Notes under the pieces: generated by a model
The model's database searches: none
What the model was told of the DNA's origin: nothing
What the model saw: the letters and a program-made list of their open reading frames with translations, nothing else
Part shown: piece after piece, positions 1,849 to 26,693 of the stretch
Layout of the letters: each line of letters begins with the position of its first letter
How positions within the stretch are numbered: the stretch's first letter is position 1
From: a virus
DNA length: 26,693 nucleotides
Virus record (IMG/VR): IMGVR_UViG_3300012920_000215
Location: 1-26,693 of that record
Reading direction: 5' to 3' (one strand)
Position numbers and translations under genes: made by a program

Positions 1849-2712
1849 ATGTCTACGCAAATCACTACCGCGTTTTCCCAGCAGTTTAGCGCTAACGTAC
1901 AACTGCTTTCTCAGCAGATGGGCTCAATCCTACGGGGTGGCGTATCTGAGGAATCAGTGACTGGTGAAAAGGCTTTCTTTGACCAAGTTGGTGCCGCCGC
2001 TGCGGTAAAACGTACATCACGGCATCAGGATACGCCTATGGTTGAAACACCCCATAGCCGTAGAATGGTGACTATGGATTCATATGAATGGGCTGACCTG
2101 ATCGACGACGCCGACAAAGTGCGTATGTTGATCGATCCAACCAGCACATATGCTCGTGCGGCTGCCGCCGCCATGGGTCGTGCTATGGATGATGCCATCA
2201 TTGAAGCCGCTACAGGCACAGCGAAAACCGGCAAGTCCGGTGGCACAAGCACATCAATGCTTGCGGCTCACCAGATTGCTAATGGTTCGGCTGACCTGAC
2301 CTTGGCGAAACTGATTGAGGCCAAGAAAGTTCTTGACCTTGCATCTGTTGACCCATCAATCCCGCGTCATATTGCCGTGGGGCCAGACCAGATTGAGGCG
2401 CTGTTAAACAGCACCACAGTCACCAGCTCTGATTTCAATACGATCAAAGCTCTGGTACAAGGCGAAATTAACACATTTCTGGGCTTCCAGTTCCATGTGT
2501 CAACTCGCTTGGCCAAGTCTGGCAACATTCGTACATGCTTTGCTTGGGCTGAAGACGGAATCAAGCTGGCTGTCGGTAAAGACGTCATGTCACGCATCGA
2601 TGAGCGTTCTGACAAATCTTACTCAACACAGGTTTACTACTGTGCAACATTCGGGGCTACCCGGATGGAGGAAGAGAAAGTCGTGCAAATCGATTGTGAC
2701 GAAAGCGCATAA
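1849..2712 (+). CDS. Major capsid protein (HK97-fold)
   Basis: 287 residues, directly downstream of the scaffold gene. It opens with MSTQITTAFSQQF, and the region of residues 20-110 (QMGSILRGGV....G..AFFDQVGAA, then DTPMVETPHSRRMVTMDSYEWADLIDDADK and YARAAAAAMGRAMDDAII) has the layout of the phage major capsid group in which an N-arm is followed by an E-loop and long spine helix. The C-terminal part (YYCATFGATRMEEEKVVQIDCDE) is the usual final beta-strand and helix. It builds the icosahedral shell. Length is somewhat short for HK97-fold capsids (about 300 or more) but normal for this subgroup without a delta domain. It has its own ribosome binding site and a 92-base leader, in keeping with high expression. 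Confidence 0.9.
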   Translation: MSTQITTAFSQQFSANVQLLSQQMGSILRGGVSEESVTGEKAFFDQVGAAAAVKRTSRHQDTPMVETPHSRRMVTMDSYEWADLIDDADKVRMLIDPTSTYARAAAAAMGRAMDDAIIEAATGTAKTGKSGGTSTSMLAAHQIANGSADLTLAKLIEAKKVLDLASVDPSIPRHIAVGPDQIEALLNSTTVTSSDFNTIKALVQGEINTFLGFQFHVSTRLAKSGNIRTCFAWAEDGIKLAVGKDVMSRIDERSDKSYSTQVYYCATFGATRMEEEKVVQIDCDESA

Positions 2713-22217: not shown

Positions 22218-22246
22218 TTGAACTTGACGGAAACCGTCACTATATA
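22218..22246 (+). promoter_or_regulatory. Sigma-70-type promoter of the acidic early gene candidate
   Basis: TTGAAC (22218-22223), a 17-base spacer, and TATATA (22241-22246) form a near-consensus sigma-70 promoter. A second reading uses TTGACG (22224-22229) with 15 bases to TATTTA (22245-22250). Expected transcript start about 22253, with AAGGAG at 22265-22270 and ATG at 22277. It is the clearest promoter in the window. Confidence 0.75.
22225..22239 (+). promoter_or_regulatory. Palindromic operator candidate, copy 1
   Basis: TGACGG-AAA-CCGTCA, a perfect inverted repeat of 6-bp arms, fills the spacer of the promoter at 22218-22246. Its position would let a bound protein block RNA polymerase. 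The core GACGGAAACCGTC is shared, with a compensated G/C swap in both arms, with the site at 25621-25633. Confidence 0.65.
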
Positions 22247-22276
22247 TTTAGTGTGAGGTTTAAAAAGGAGAAACAA

Positions 22277-22954
22277 ATGTTTTGGTTTGAAAAAGAAAGC
22301 TACAGAAATTTCCATGCCGCGTTGCTTGAAGACATCAACGCTTTGCCACTTGCACAAATTGGCGAAACAAAATTTGAAAACAGTTCATATAACAACGACG
22401 CTTGTGGTTCAATCATGTGTGAGATTGACCGCGACAGAGAAACCTATGTGCAACTGTTTGCGTTTGAGACAAAGGAAGAAGCTGTGCAGGAATTGGGTGA
22501 GGAATATGGCACACAGTATGCCATCACTGTTTGCCGTAATGGTGAGCGTCTTCCTATTTCATGGGAAGGCGATGACCGTGAAGAAGCAATGGTCAAAGCA
22601 ATAGATGCCGTGGACGATCTAAAGGTTATGGGCTTTGACCATGAGGGCATATATATTGAAAACATCAAAGAGGACTCATCCGGCTTCCCACATAAGGCTG
22701 ATGATGCGATTGCTGAGTACCGCGATACGATTGCTTCACTTGTAGTAAAGAGCAAGCCAAAGGATTTGGACAGACTGTGTCTGATCGTGCAGAACGCTAT
22801 TGGTCAGACTGATGGCGGTCATGCCGGCAACTACTGGATTGATCCTGCTTCTATCGTAGACGATTACGAGTTTGTTTTAGATGCAATGACTCATGATCAA
22901 TTGCTTGAGTACATTGAATATGAAATTCATTGTTACTTTCAAGAAGACAAGTAA
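22277..22954 (+). CDS. Acidic protein of unknown function with its own promoter and terminator
   Basis: 225 residues from the ATG at 22277, chosen because AAGGAG lies 6 bases upstream; a frame opens earlier (22253) but at the expected transcript start. Acidic: 49 Asp/Glu against 19 Lys/Arg by hand count. Mixed alpha/beta, with 'YVQLFAFETKEEAVQELGEEYG', 'YAITVCRNGERLPISWEGDDREEAMVKAIDAVDDLKVMGFDHEGIYI' and a C-terminal helical part (LDRLCLIVQNAIGQT, YEFVLDAMTHDQLLEYIEYEI). No known domain recognised. As a single-gene unit between a strong promoter with operator and a strong terminator it resembles early host-takeover or anti-restriction genes, though this is inference. Confidence 0.75.
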   Translation: MFWFEKESYRNFHAALLEDINALPLAQIGETKFENSSYNNDACGSIMCEIDRDRETYVQLFAFETKEEAVQELGEEYGTQYAITVCRNGERLPISWEGDDREEAMVKAIDAVDDLKVMGFDHEGIYIENIKEDSSGFPHKADDAIAEYRDTIASLVVKSKPKDLDRLCLIVQNAIGQTDGGHAGNYWIDPASIVDDYEFVLDAMTHDQLLEYIEYEIHCYFQEDK

Positions 22955-22967
22955 TTCAAGCCGAAAG

Positions 22968-22996
22968 AAAGGGGCGCATCAGCGCCCCTTTTTTTT
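22968..22996 (+). terminator. Bidirectional Rho-independent terminator
   Basis: AAAGGGGCGC (22968-22977), loop ATCA, GCGCCCCTTT (22982-22991), with eight T (22989-22996) for rightward transcription. On the minus strand the same stem is followed by TTTCTTTC, giving a weaker leftward terminator. It lies between convergent genes, and the loop contains the stop codon of the leftward 78-residue gene (22979-22981). Confidence 0.9.
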
Positions 22997-23215
22997 GTGT
23001 CTTGTATGGTATGGGTCTATCTTTTCACAGTGATCATATGAGCGCCACCTTGTGAAAACGTAGGTGGTTTGCCAATCAACCTTACCATATTGATCTGGAT
23101 CAGCGACGGCTCTGGGGTCATCCACAAAGCCGTCACTTGTTTGCACCTCACCAACCATTGTCGTCTGAGGCGCTTGGGGCGCTTGCGACTGGTTGTCTTT
23201 TTTCTTTTGGCTCAT
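22979..23215 (-). CDS. Hypothetical protein at the end of the recombination operon
   Basis: 78 residues if started at 23215; a second Met at 23158 would give 59 residues and reduce overlap with the upstream gene from 68 to 11 bases. Neither has a clear ribosome binding site. Gln/Pro-rich N-terminus (SQKKKDNQSQAPQAPQ), then 'GEVQTSDGFVDDPRAVADPDQYGKVDWQTTYVFTRWRSYDHCEKIDPY' and a basic end HKKKGR encoded within the terminator hairpin. No family recognised. Being the last gene of the leftward operon suggests a link to DNA metabolism, but nothing in the sequence shows it. Confidence 0.5.
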   Translation of the reverse strand: MSQKKKDNQSQAPQAPQTTMVGEVQTSDGFVDDPRAVADPDQYGKVDWQTTYVFTRWRSYDHCEKIDPYHTRHKKKGR

Positions 23216-23510
23216 TGCACAATAACGAAAACGTCATGACCTTTGGCATATCTTTGACGTCCTCAACCCCTTCAGCTCTGTATTGTACGCTGATGCCGAA
23301 CTCAACGCCAGCCTCAAACAATTGCTGATGTAGCTCATCACATATTGCCTGTTGCTCTGGTGACATGGGCTTGAAGCGCCGCGCACTGTCATCCCACTCA
23401 GTGCGGAATTGCAGATACGCGGTAGCACGGAACTCATTAGGCACACCCATGTCGTCGGTAGCTTGAATGTCCTGACGCATTTTAAATTTAGCTCGTGAAA
23501 ACTGAGGCAT
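23148..23510 (-). CDS. Hypothetical protein of the recombination operon
   Basis: 120 residues, with GGAGAGAGATA before the ATG; the start overlaps the preceding TAA by one base. Beta-rich middle ('NEFRATAYLQFRTEW', 'GVEFGISVQYRAEGVEDVKDMPKVMTFSLLCNE'), then a low-complexity Pro/Ala/Ser tail ending SDDNGW. A small beta-domain followed by a flexible tail with an acidic-aromatic tip looks like the general plan of single-strand binding proteins, but I cannot show homology. It lies next to the annealing-protein gene, which would suit a single-strand-binding partner. Function unproven. Confidence 0.6.
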   Translation of the reverse strand: MPQFSRAKFKMRQDIQATDDMGVPNEFRATAYLQFRTEWDDSARRFKPMSPEQQAICDELHQQLFEAGVEFGISVQYRAEGVEDVKDMPKVMTFSLLCNEPKEKRQPVASAPSASDDNGW

Positions 23511-24178
23511 TATCTCTCTCCATTGTTTACAGTTTCATATTTAGCGGCATAGAAATCTTTCAGCTCAGCGTATAACTCGCGGTCATACTCTTGTAATTCT
23601 TCGCGCTGGGTCTTTGTGTTCTTGCCCCAGCCCATGAGCTGATACGCTTTGGTAAACCCGGATATCTTTTTCTTTTCCTGATCCACCCACTGGCGCCACA
23701 GATCGTCGTCAAACGGTATGTCATCCACGGTTGGCGCCGGCTTGCTTGGCGCTGCCGGCTCTTGTTTCGCCGGTGCAACGCTGATGTGTTCCGGGCGGGT
23801 CTGCTTGAAATCATCAGCCTCATCCTCAGAATAAACAAACCCAGCTACACCAATCAGCTTGAGGATCACGCGGTCTTTTGCGCGTTTCTCAGCCATGGCA
23901 TATGGGTAGCTGTTCTTGTTGTTGTAAGGCGCGGCCTCACCAACAGACCATTCGACCTTGTCGCCAAGCCGGCCAGACACCTGCATCACGACTGTCTTTT
24001 TATCAGCGTTTGCCTCAATCATGACCGGCGGGTCAAACGTGATACCTTTATAAGCGGCCACCTGTTCCAGCGCTTTATGCAAAGCAACCGGTGTGCCATG
24101 GCAATCCCATGTTGCCTGATCTTTTGTGAGCCCTATCGCTTTGAATATTTCGATAAGCTCGTTTGGTAAATTAGCCAT
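23510..24178 (-). CDS. Probable single-strand annealing recombination protein (Rad52/ERF-like)
   Basis: 222 residues. N-terminal domain (1-125): 'WDCHGTPVALHKALEQVAAYKGI.FDPP', 'KKTVVMQVSGRLGDKVEWSVGEAAPYNNKNSYPYAMAEKRAKDRVILKLIGVAG.VYSEDEADDF'. The 'A..MAEKRAKDRVILKLIG' helix with a preceding beta sheet resembles phage annealing proteins of the ERF/Rad52 type, which pair complementary single strands. A Pro/Ala linker (132-150) leads to DDIPFDDDLW (152-161), similar to the C-terminal tip of SSB, and a helical C-terminal part. The exonuclease encoded upstream in the same operon supports a two-component recombination system. Family assignment is tentative. Overlaps the upstream gene by 8 bases. 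Confidence 0.6.
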   Translation of the reverse strand: MANLPNELIEIFKAIGLTKDQATWDCHGTPVALHKALEQVAAYKGITFDPPVMIEANADKKTVVMQVSGRLGDKVEWSVGEAAPYNNKNSYPYAMAEKRAKDRVILKLIGVAGFVYSEDEADDFKQTRPEHISVAPAKQEPAAPSKPAPTVDDIPFDDDLWRQWVDQEKKKISGFTKAYQLMGWGKNTKTQREELQEYDRELYAELKDFYAAKYETVNNGER

Positions 24179-24514: not shown

Positions 24515-24625
24515 TTACCCCCACCAGTTTGAATCAACGAATACGATTGTCAGACCGACATACAAAATGCCCATCAGAATAACCCACAACAAAGTGTTCA
24601 TGGCTTCCCTCAACAAAGTTTTCAT
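24515..24625 (-). CDS. 36-residue single-span membrane peptide
   Basis: ATG at 24625 overlaps the stop of the exonuclease gene (ATGA), GGGGG lies 5 bases upstream, and the TAA at 24515-24517 is 2 bases before the next ATG. The product starts MKTLLREAMNTLLW and has one hydrophobic span (about residues 10-30), ending DSNWWG. It fits exactly into the operon, so it is likely translated. No known family; a membrane peptide here could target the exonuclease complex or act separately. Confidence 0.6.
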   Translation of the reverse strand: MKTLLREAMNTLLWVILMGILYVGLTIVFVDSNWWG

Positions 24626-25563
24626 ATCAACCCCCATACTTTCTTAGCTTCATCAAGATAGGTTTCGGTTTCCTGCCAGTAAATTGCAGACCAATCAGGC
24701 GACACCAATCTGAACACATCCGCCTTTGTTTTGGATGCTTTCAGGATGTTTTCGGTTGTCCGGTGGTAAAGCGTGGTTTCATTTATGATGTCTTGCAGGA
24801 AATCATCACGCAATTCGGGCGCGTTTTCCGGTGTGAAAACACGATAGTCTGTAGCGTTTGCATAGACAATGAATGGTGGCAGGTTGCCGTTCAATGCCCA
24901 AAACCCCGCGGCTTGAAACACGTTGTTCATATCAAACATGCCGGTCAGTGAGTTAGGCAAGCTGGCATTTTGCCAGCCGGATTTAGATCGTGAACTAGGC
25001 CGCGACCATTTTGTTTTGAGATCACCGCGCCGGTTATAGTCCGGCTTGGTGTGATAAGGTATAGACAATGTAGGCAGGGGCTTCAGTAATTCGACCTCAC
25101 CTAGTATACGGTTGTCGCTAGCCATAGCCTCTTGCAAGCCCTTGACCGCATGTTCGGCCACCAATGGTAGCTCTTCTAGATATTTTTCTTTTTTGCTTCC
25201 ATCCAGCTCACTGTTTGGCTGATACGCTTGGAGCTGTTCGACGCCGGCGTATGTGGCTTCAGCCATATCCAATGTCTTGCCCTCTTTATCCATAACAAGA
25301 GCAAGGTCACATATGGTTTGGGTAGCTACACCACCCATCATGTTGGCGCTACCCCGCCGATCCCGCAACCGATACAGTGTATCCTTGGCAATCAGCTTGT
25401 CTTTTTCAGACACATCAGGATTTCGCAGGGTTTTTTTTGCCTCTTCAATCTGTGGTCTGACATGTATTTTTTCGAAAAAATCTTTCGCTCGATCCTTTGA
25501 CCGGGGGTTTGAAACCGTCCAAATCCCCAGCTTTGTAGCGAAATCTGGTGCATCTACTAGCAT
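24622..25563 (-). CDS. PD-(D/E)XK exonuclease (RecB/Cas4-like), recombination
   Basis: 313 residues. The catalytic core shows 'GEVELL' (155-160), then 'KPDYNRRGDLKTKW' with D181-L-K183 as the (D/E)xK motif, and Q217 in 'QAAGFW' as the QxxxY-like motif IV. Helical N-terminal third. This pattern is typical of RecB-like or lambda-exonuclease-like nucleases, which resect double-stranded ends to give single strands for an annealing protein. An annealing-protein candidate is in the same operon. The ATG at 25563 has AAAGAGA upstream; a promoter with operator lies at 25609-25635. Confidence 0.75.
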   Translation of the reverse strand: MLVDAPDFATKLGIWTVSNPRSKDRAKDFFEKIHVRPQIEEAKKTLRNPDVSEKDKLIAKDTLYRLRDRRGSANMMGGVATQTICDLALVMDKEGKTLDMAEATYAGVEQLQAYQPNSELDGSKKEKYLEELPLVAEHAVKGLQEAMASDNRILGEVELLKPLPTLSIPYHTKPDYNRRGDLKTKWSRPSSRSKSGWQNASLPNSLTGMFDMNNVFQAAGFWALNGNLPPFIVYANATDYRVFTPENAPELRDDFLQDIINETTLYHRTTENILKASKTKADVFRLVSPDWSAIYWQETETYLDEAKKVWGLI

Positions 25564-25595
25564 TTCACATTCTCTTTTTGTCTGTTTCCGTTAAA

Positions 25596-25614
25596 TGTAA
25601 TTAGTTTCATTACA
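25596..25614. promoter_or_regulatory. Inverted repeat TGTAAT-N7-ATTACA (operator candidate)
   Basis: TGTAAT (25596-25601) and ATTACA (25609-25614) separated by 7 bases, a perfect 6-bp dyad in the divergent region between the exonuclease and the Cro-like gene. It covers the -10 area and expected start of the leftward promoter. The size (19 bp) fits a dimeric helix-turn-helix repressor. Confidence 0.6.
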
Positions 25615-25635
25615 GGGCTAGACGCAAAGCGTCAA
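25609..25635 (-). promoter_or_regulatory. Promoter of the leftward recombination operon
   Basis: On the minus strand TTGACG (25635-25630), a 15-base spacer, and TGTAAT (25614-25609). A 17-base reading to TAATGA fits less well. The 15-base spacing is shorter than the usual 17 but equals that of TTGACG-TATTTA at 22224-22250. Transcript start near 25602, leader about 39 bases. I see no equally clear rightward promoter for the gene at 25655. Confidence 0.55.
25621..25633. promoter_or_regulatory. Palindromic operator candidate, copy 2
   Basis: GACGC-AAA-GCGTC, a perfect dyad overlapping the -35 hexamer of the leftward promoter. It differs from the core of the site at 22226-22238 only by a compensated G/C exchange in both arms, which keeps the symmetry. 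It lies 22 bases before the Cro-like gene. Confidence 0.65.
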
Positions 25636-25654
25636 GGCATGATAGCAACAAAGC

Positions 25655-25867
25655 ATGATATTAGATGATTATAGAAAGAAAAAGGCTTGGTCTTATTCGG
25701 AGCTGGCACGCCAGGTGGGGGCTTCCCATGCCACGGTAGTGCGTCGGTGGTGCTTGCCATTTGGCCATGAACAGCGTTTGATTCCAAACGAGGTGTTTAT
25801 GGATCGCATCATGCGAATGAGTAACGGTGAGGTTATGCCCAATGATTTCTACATACGACATGACTGA
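25655..25867 (+). CDS. Cro/YdaS-like helix-turn-helix repressor candidate
   Basis: 70 residues. 'YSELARQVGASHATVVRRWC' (14-33) is a helix-turn-helix, and the C-terminal 'MSNGEVMPNDFY' (55-66) is a tail often seen in Cro/YdaS-type phage repressors. Such small dimeric proteins bind palindromic operators near their own gene. The gene begins 22 bases downstream of the palindrome at 25621-25633 and next to the 25596-25614 dyad, so autoregulation and repression of the divergent operon are likely, though binding is not shown. No clear ribosome binding site is seen before the ATG at 25655. Confidence 0.75.
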   Translation: MILDDYRKKKAWSYSELARQVGASHATVVRRWCLPFGHEQRLIPNEVFMDRIMRMSNGEVMPNDFYIRHD

Positions 25868-26231
25868 GGACGAGCTACAAAAGCAAGTTGTCAATTGGTT
25901 ACAGGTCGCGCTGCCGGAGGGTTGTGTGTTTCATCACAGCCCTAATGAGGGGACGCGCCATGTGGCGTTCAAGCGAAAGCTCAAGCTGATGGGCACCAAG
26001 TTCGGCTGGCCGGATCTGGAAATATTTGTGCCGGCGGATCAGTCGCGGGTTGGCATTAGCACATCCATATTTATTGAGCTGAAGCGTTTGAAAGGCGGCA
26101 AGCTCACGCCTAATCAAGAGGAAATGAAAGCCCGGCTATTACTAGCTGGATGCCACTGGGGTTTGGCTAGGTCGTTGGAACAGGTGCACGAGATCCTAGA
26201 TCCTATCGTGAAATTAAAAGCAGGTGTGTGA
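25842..26231 (+). CDS. VRR-NUC nuclease
   Basis: 129 residues from the ATG at 25842, with GGTGAGG upstream and a 26-base overlap with the repressor gene; GTG at 25827 and ATG at 25860 are weaker alternatives. Core motifs: E11 in 'TEDELQKQV', P57-D58 in 'GTKFGWPDLEIFV', and E79-L-K81 in 'FIELKRLKGGKLTPNQEEM', followed by a final helix 'LLLAGCHWGLARSLEQ'. This is the VRR-NUC form of the PD-(D/E)XK fold, known as structure-specific or Holliday-junction nucleases. In phages stand-alone VRR-NUC proteins are linked to replication and junction resolution. All key residues are present. The TGA overlaps the next ATG. Confidence 0.85.
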   Translation: MISTYDMTEDELQKQVVNWLQVALPEGCVFHHSPNEGTRHVAFKRKLKLMGTKFGWPDLEIFVPADQSRVGISTSIFIELKRLKGGKLTPNQEEMKARLLLAGCHWGLARSLEQVHEILDPIVKLKAGV

Positions 26232-26464
26232 TGGAGCAAGGCGACGGCACATGGCATAACCGGTTGCGCTGGGGTATGTGCCCTAAATGCGAGACCATGT
26301 TGCCAAAGCCGAAAGGCGGCTTGGTGGTGTGCGAAACGTGCCGGCTAGGCATTGCAGTCAAGGCTTGCACCGATTGTGATGATGGCATGATACGTCAGCC
26401 TGATGGCTATGGCTGTGTTGAGTGGACAAGTTGCTACACCTGCGATGGTAAAGGCTATGTGTAA
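26231..26464 (+). CDS. Zinc protein with four CxxC motifs (DnaJ-type)
   Basis: 77 residues. C17-x2-C20, C34-x2-C37, C46-x2-C49 and C68-x2-C71 form two probable zinc sites; the last two pairs read CxxCxDG and CxxCxGKG, like the DnaJ central domain. No J-domain is present. It may bind DNA, RNA or a protein partner. It lies between the nuclease and methyltransferase genes with TGATG and TAATG overlaps, indicating one transcription unit. Stand-alone DnaJ-like zinc proteins are seen in many phages; function is usually unknown. Confidence 0.75.
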   Translation: MEQGDGTWHNRLRWGMCPKCETMLPKPKGGLVVCETCRLGIAVKACTDCDDGMIRQPDGYGCVEWTSCYTCDGKGYV

Positions 26465-26693
26465 TGCGGCATGTGGATTTATGCAGTGGCATAGGCGGGT
26501 TTGCTTTGGGCTTTCAGTGGGCTGGATTATCACGCCCGGTATTGTTTTGTGACATAGAGCCATGGTCACGCAAGGTATTAGCAAAGCATTGGCCTGATGT
26601 GCCGATTGCTGAAGATGTGAGGGAGCTAGCCAATGACCCAACAGGACTTGTTCCAGACTGCGACATCCTCACAGCAGGATACCCATGCCAGCC
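26464..26693 (+). CDS. DNA C5-cytosine methyltransferase, N-terminal part (3' end outside window)
   Basis: The frame runs open to the window end, giving the first 76 residues. Motif I is 'DLCSGIGGFALGF' (5-17, AdoMet binding), D30-I-E32 with P33-W34 is motif II, and 'GYPCQP' (72-77) is motif IV with the catalytic C75. These place it in the Dcm/HhaI group, which methylates cytosine C5 in specific sites. A phage-borne enzyme may protect phage DNA from host restriction. No cognate restriction endonuclease is seen in the visible part. Confidence 0.92.
   Translation, partial: MRHVDLCSGIGGFALGFQWAGLSRPVLFCDIEPWSRKVLAKHWPDVPIAEDVRELANDPTGLVPDCDILTAGYPCQ

Follow-up and report, generated by a model that had tools for sequence, protein, structure and literature searches.

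The immunity regions of the temperate phages lambda, 434 and P22 encode a CI-type and a Cro-type HTH protein on divergent strands, with palindromic operators lying over the early promoters; lambda has three operator sites close together. Virulent derivatives of temperate phages, in which part of this apparatus has been lost, are a known kind of phage. Mycobacteriophage D29 carries a deletion of its repressor gene and is lytic, and is still homoimmune with its temperate relative L5 (PMC3203893). Mycobacteriophage TM4 likewise derives from a temperate parent, having lost its integration apparatus and probably its repressor (PMC3203893). Among marine phages, integrase and att sequences have been linked to SAR11 for the group that holds the relatives of HTVC010P, and to SAR116 for other groups (Mizuno et al. 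2013, PMC3861242). The locus described here belongs to a phage of the HTVC010P kind and resembles the control regions of lambda, 434 and P22 in its divergent arrangement, its palindromic operators over predicted early promoters and its Cro-type gene. Unlike those regions, it lacks the CI partner.

The DNA analyzed (hereafter, the window) is the whole 26,693-bp IMG/VR virus record IMGVR_UViG_3300012920_000215, and we designate by L and G numbers the related loci and contigs fetched for comparison. Its virion genes, termed T7-like in the original prediction, fit that label only loosely, as the capsid is of the HTVC010P type: the major capsid protein is 69% identical over its whole length to that of the Pelagibacter phage HTVC035P, and the window also encodes homologs of the portal, scaffold, tail tubular, tail fibre and M15 proteins of HTVC010P. 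Both the homologous capsid and tail genes and the gene order are those of an HTVC010P-type podophage. The pelagiphages HTVC203P, HTVC034P and HTVC010P have capsid proteins 62-69% identical to that of the window and share with it the order of leftward genes for a nuclease and a single-strand-annealing protein (SSAP) and a rightward small HTH gene. However, their HTH proteins are only ~31% identical to the window protein, and no operators of the window type lie upstream of the corresponding genes. GC content is 48% in the window versus 32% in HTVC010P, a difference that probably reflects a different host. Judged from a 36-kb relative (G013), the window falls short of the complete genome by ~6 kb. 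The window runs off at 26464-26693 within the start of a C5-cytosine DNA methyltransferase gene, the G013 counterpart of which is 88% identical.

The control region consists of the 91 bp (25564-25654) between a leftward nuclease-type gene (24622-25563, minus strand) and a rightward gene encoding a 70-aa HTH protein (25655-25867, plus strand). The identification of the latter as Cro-like in the original prediction is upheld by its conservation among relatives, which are encoded by 228 IMG/VR viral-contig stretches (the best 80 of these 228 loci were fetched), and by an AlphaFold model (pLDDT 94) with a five-helix HTH fold of the Cro/C1 type. The best structural neighbors of this model, at Z 8.1-8.5, are DR_2454 and P22 c2 (8.2); 434 Cro scores Z 6.2, and YdaS is found at Z 7.4 together with many other HTH proteins. 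A Foldseek search with the model returned no match below E 0.001, and the Pfam and PHROGs matches of the protein were to HTH families, all of them sub-threshold. Sequence and model together point to a small HTH protein of the Cro type adjoining an early promoter, and we refer to its gene as cro. In the cultured pelagiphages the gene at this position (HTVC203P gp16 and HTVC034P gp14; L083 and L084) is annotated merely as hypothetical, and both genes encode distant Cro homologs without window-type operators. A search of bacterial genomes for prophages by means of cro yielded only two contigs, L081 and L082, neither of which constitutes host evidence; L081 sits in a MAG labeled Euryarchaeota, into which a phage contig was probably binned.

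The genes on either side are also shared with relatives. Downstream of cro, a gene at 25827-26231 (plus strand), conserved in this place, encodes a VRR-NUC or Holliday-junction-resolvase-like protein matching phrog_5702 (Holliday junction resolvase) with E 1e-10 and, below the cut-off, VRR_NUC with E 5e-4. The nuclease-type gene obtained no match in a Pfam search and is named after its relatives, the syntenic genes of HTVC203P and HTVC034P being annotated as 'putative nuclease'. The leftward operon further includes a gene for an SSAP-type protein (23510-24178, minus strand), 64% identical to the product of the gene in the same place in L003, and the HTVC203P gene adjoining the nuclease is annotated as 'putative single strand-annealing protein'.

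To delineate the operators of this region, we compared 62 distinct control-region sequences, comprising the IMG/VR relatives and the window. Two nested dyads had originally been proposed, GACGC-AAA-GCGTC (GACGCAAAGCGTC, 25621-25633) and TGTAAT-N7-ATTACA (TGTAATTAGTTTCATTACA, 25596-25614). In dinucleotide-matched random sequences of 91 bp, an inverted repeat with 5-bp arms and a spacer of up to 3 occurs in 28% of cases, and one with 6-bp arms and a spacer of up to 10 in 18%, so neither dyad is significant alone and conservation must decide. The first dyad is the core of a conserved site, O_R (CTAGACGCAAAGCGTCAAG, 25618-25636), found at the same position in relatives, the right half of which, GTCAAG, is invariant in 62/62 distinct sequences. 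The second is present, and overlaps the predicted -10 of the leftward promoter as had been noted, but is absent from 61/61 other sequences, six of which have an unrelated palindrome at its position; we therefore rejected this unconserved, chance-level repeat as a second operator. Rather than nested dyads, the region contains two operators side by side, 41 bp apart, the second being a conserved site (O_L, TTTGTCTGTTTCCGTTAAA, 25577-25595) that had gone unnoticed in the first reading.

Nearly all fetched relatives present two sites of the form TTGAC-N7-GTCAA upstream of cro, spaced by 41 bp in 41 loci and by 39 bp in 33, with spacings of 38 and 49 in one locus each and a single site in three loci. 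Searches for this motif allowing up to two mismatches produce ~12 chance matches per window, which makes a plain motif search useless by itself, and sites were hence scored with a position matrix built without the window. Under this matrix O_L scores 18.1 and O_R 20.1, and a score of 18 was reached in 0 of 5000 shuffled versions of the 91 bp. The window has two further matches, one within a coding region (19265, score 15.7) and one within the nuclease gene (25396, score 12.9), both of which were taken as chance. Operators accompany Cro homologs that are ~52% identical (L081, L114) and are absent with those that are ~31% identical (HTVC203P, HTVC034P). At the level of sequence, the window retains palindromic operators common to its predicted divergent promoters, and the operator motif can be used to recognize this control region in unannotated contigs. 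Strong matrix matches also occur elsewhere in some relatives (L019:8336, L045:8455, L068:5538), and the regulon may extend beyond the switch.

Alignment of the relatives on O_R revealed a pattern consistent with two divergent promoters. The left arm of the operator is TTGAC-like, as expected of a -35 element, and a T/A-rich -10 is conserved 17 bp rightward; on the minus strand, the right arm provides an invariant TTGAC, and seventeen bases leftward lies a -10 in which TA is conserved at 100% and 97%. The corresponding predicted promoters of the window are P_R (TAGACG-17-ATAGCA, 25619-25647, plus strand) and P_L (TTGACG-17-TAATGA, 25607-25635, minus strand), with O_L just downstream of the predicted leftward start. 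Both predictions draw on this comparative pattern, the hexamers of the window being modest, and a generic promoter consensus scan of the window reported neither of them, nor the hexamer pair at 22218 described below. O_R thus seems to double as operator and as the source of the -35 elements of both divergent promoters. In this respect, and in having two operators 41 or 39 bp apart, the region differs from that of lambda.

In the relatives, the same control region is part of a larger arrangement. In L003 the order is int (+), a xis-like gene (-), a 127-aa gene (-), the SSAP gene (-), a 149-aa gene (-), the nuclease gene (-), a gene for a 211-aa HTH protein (-), two operators, cro (+) and the VRR-NUC gene (+). 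The 211-aa protein matches HTH_26 above threshold and also phage repressor profiles, and its AlphaFold model (pLDDT 87) has as its best PDB matches the lambda-186 hybrid repressor (E 4e-8), 186 CI and lambda CI, a second aligner covering mainly the DNA-binding domain. On this basis we call this protein CI, a putative λ/186-CI-like repressor, the resemblance of which to lambda CI extends the parallel with the lambda region. A CI homolog lies between nuclease and cro in 73 of the 80 contigs having both genes, and one is also carried by the distant member L114. In CI-bearing relatives the interval separating CI from the nuclease gene holds one more operator (e.g. L003:4258-4276), which is missing from the window clade, as is CI.

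Integrase follows a similar distribution. The tyrosine integrase domain PF00589 was detected in 22 of the 32 related records searched, and among the 32 loci that reach the int region Int was identified by tblastn in 27 and by Pfam search in L041 and L042, leaving only the CI-less L026, L031 and L081 without it. Many int-bearing loci contain a tRNA 3' end (e.g. GGTTCGAGTCCCGTCACTCCCGCCA) a few hundred bases before int, which is expected to constitute attP. These fragments were found by pattern; scanning the window and nine loci for tRNA genes detected none.

The comparison also uncovered a third operator in the window, likewise unnoticed in the first reading. In L002, L003 and L118 the 19-mer CTTGACGGAAACCGTCACT is located just upstream of int; in L003 it sits between the -35 and the -10 of the int promoter, and L118 shows TTGACC-17-TATATT before int. 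The identical 19-mer occurs at 22223-22241 of the window in the same promoter context, where it fills the spacer of a predicted former integrase promoter with the same layout as that of L118 (TTGAAC-17-TATATA, 22218-22246, plus strand). What follows is not int but a 233-aa gene of unknown function (22253-22954, plus strand), which among the fetched loci was seen in the window and in L086 (83% identical), is absent from G013 and has no match of note in Pfam or PHROGs. L086, L026 and L124 all retain the operator in the place of the int promoter, and the genes downstream of it differ in L026 and L124. A strong terminator-like hairpin followed by a T run (22962-22997) separates the 233-aa gene from a convergent 78-aa gene.

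No CI gene, integrase, excisionase-like gene or tRNA-end attP was found in the window. The place of the repressor is closed, with O_L starting 14 bp from the nuclease start codon, and a 77-aa gene ends just before the operator at 22223, with no tRNA end there. The arrangement is shared by L026, L030 and L031, and by L086 as far as its contig reaches, whereas L027 has another gene in the gap between nuclease and O_L. The junction behind O_L is near-identical in the sister phages, reading ACGGAAACAGACAAAA and then AGAGAATGT, and is one base longer in the window. The original prediction had remarked that no integrase was in view, and this is not an artifact of a short window: the near-complete G013 contig (36 kb), which includes L031, carries the entire control region as well as terminase, portal, capsid, tail and M15 genes, and it too is devoid of integrase. 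Searches of G013 with the collected CI, Int and Xis sequences gave no convincing match, and PF00589 and PF00239 are absent. The search for an integrase or a second repressor elsewhere in the genome, which had been suggested as a check, thus found none in the window or in G013; for the missing ~6 kb of the window genome itself, a repressor is excluded only by analogy with G013.

To place these absences in an evolutionary context, we examined the nuclease phylogeny, in which the window, L086, L087 (the L026 contig) and L090 (the L027 contig) form a single clade with support of 100/99, itself nested in CI-bearing clades (100/97, then 99/94). This nested and supported position, together with the operator retained at the int promoter, indicates loss rather than ancestral absence. 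In the tree of cro and VRR-NUC the window lies beside, not within, its sisters, so the control region may be mosaic, or the loss may have happened more than once.

Taken together, the comparisons suggest that this region is very probably the remnant of a temperate-phage immunity region, with an orphan Cro and its operators, from which CI, int, the xis-like gene and attP have been lost. The temperate-type switch of the original prediction is correct for the kind of control region, since relatives present CI on the left, two operators and Cro on the right, but does not extend to a working two-way switch. A CI-type repressor gene divergent from cro is not found in the window, and neither are the integrase and attP of a temperate phage; the lysogeny genes are missing where close relatives have them, as in a virulent derivative of a temperate phage, which is what the window phage appears to be. 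With neither repressor nor integrase, it should be obligately lytic.

From the operators and gene losses established by comparison, we infer binding, promoter use and lifestyle as follows. The ancestor would have had a CI-type repressor gene left of O_L and a Cro-like gene right of O_R; additional operators would have lain in the int promoter and in the interval separating CI from the nuclease gene. Loss of the lysogeny genes (CI, int and the xis-like gene) and of attP would then have left the lineage with Cro, O_L, O_R and the operator of the old int promoter. On infection P_R and P_L would fire, and Cro dimers would build up, bind the TTGAC-N7-GTCAA sites at O_L, O_R and 22223, and silence P_R, P_L and the 22218 promoter, in the manner of lambda Cro during lytic growth. 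Damping of the early promoters during obligately lytic growth is the most likely role of Cro, and continued use by Cro best explains the persistence of three sites without CI and int. CI produced by a related prophage should also still be able to repress the window phage. On balance, we lean towards the broader proposal that a stable and diverse marine lineage became obligately lytic through loss of repressor and integrase, with the operator network, including an old integrase promoter that would now drive unrelated genes, under the control of Cro alone.

Alternative explanations differ in which part of this reading they dispute. That the window encodes a working two-way switch, with a repressor elsewhere in the genome and integration by an unseen recombinase or maintenance in a plasmid state, would fit the intact operators and Cro and a window that lacks part of its genome; it is nevertheless very improbable, because the repressor of the relatives directly adjoins O_L, a place that is closed in the window, and because the 36 kb of G013 yielded no convincing CI, Int or Xis match and no tyrosine or serine recombinase domain. 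The absence of CI might instead be ancestral, the region being an ordinary lytic early control region in which Cro is a self-limiting regulator, and CI and int having been gained by other lineages. HTVC010P-type isolates, which have a distant Cro homolog in the same place and neither CI nor integrase, are in agreement with such a history. We regard it as distinctly unlikely, as CI-bearing lineages surround the CI-less clade in the nuclease tree, the distant L114 also has a CI homolog, and the window carries an operator identical to that of the int promoter with no int behind it.

The remaining alternative accepts the losses and questions the role of Cro: the operators could be used by another regulator, such as a host factor or the product of a later phage gene, while the small HTH protein acts elsewhere. 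The HTVC relatives encode a downstream 'putative transcriptional regulator' in a part of the genome that is missing here. Given that the sites flank the cro promoter in relatives and that their presence tracks Cro similarity, this explanation also appears unlikely, and regulation by Cro remains the preferred reading.

As a virulent derivative, the window phage invites comparison with the two mycobacteriophages. Like D29, it has lost the repressor and kept the operators; in contrast to D29, it belongs to an unrelated phage group, also lacks int, a xis-like gene and attP, and shares the loss with a clade that is defined by it rather than with a single isolate. It resembles TM4 in deriving from a temperate parent through loss of lysogeny functions. 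TM4, however, still encodes a predicted Xis and is able to infect hosts lysogenic for its relatives, whereas the window clade conserves operators at three promoters and the lost repressor gene can be identified by position. Within the literature covered, such a derivative is newly seen in HTVC010P-like marine podophages. HTVC010P-type phages count among the most numerous in the sea, and the locus bears on how often phage lineages shift between temperate and lytic lifestyles. It provides a before-and-after comparison between temperate relatives with int and the full CI/Cro region and a nested clade that has neither. In this setting it can be tested whether selection on an operator network is sustained by Cro alone, and whether the immunity of temperate kin still acts on their lytic derivatives. 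If the proposal of an obligately lytic lineage under Cro is true, temperate relatives would still impose superinfection immunity on such a lineage.

Further instances of altered lysogeny genes were observed among the relatives. L038 contains a wrecked CI gene (L038:216-482) with the start codon and N-terminus left and most of the rest deleted, which may be a recent loss in its own right or a misassembly. L055 and L081, both outside the clade of the window, are CI-less with integrase undetected, which suggests that loss of lysogeny genes recurs in this phage family. The capsid gene of the window (1849-2712) is uninterrupted, and an Rfam search of the window returned no match; in the close relative L116 (IMGVR_UViG_3300030098_001795, minus strand), ~190 bp at L116:17052-17234 interrupt the major capsid gene and match the group I intron family RF00028 with 57.8 bits, above the gathering score.
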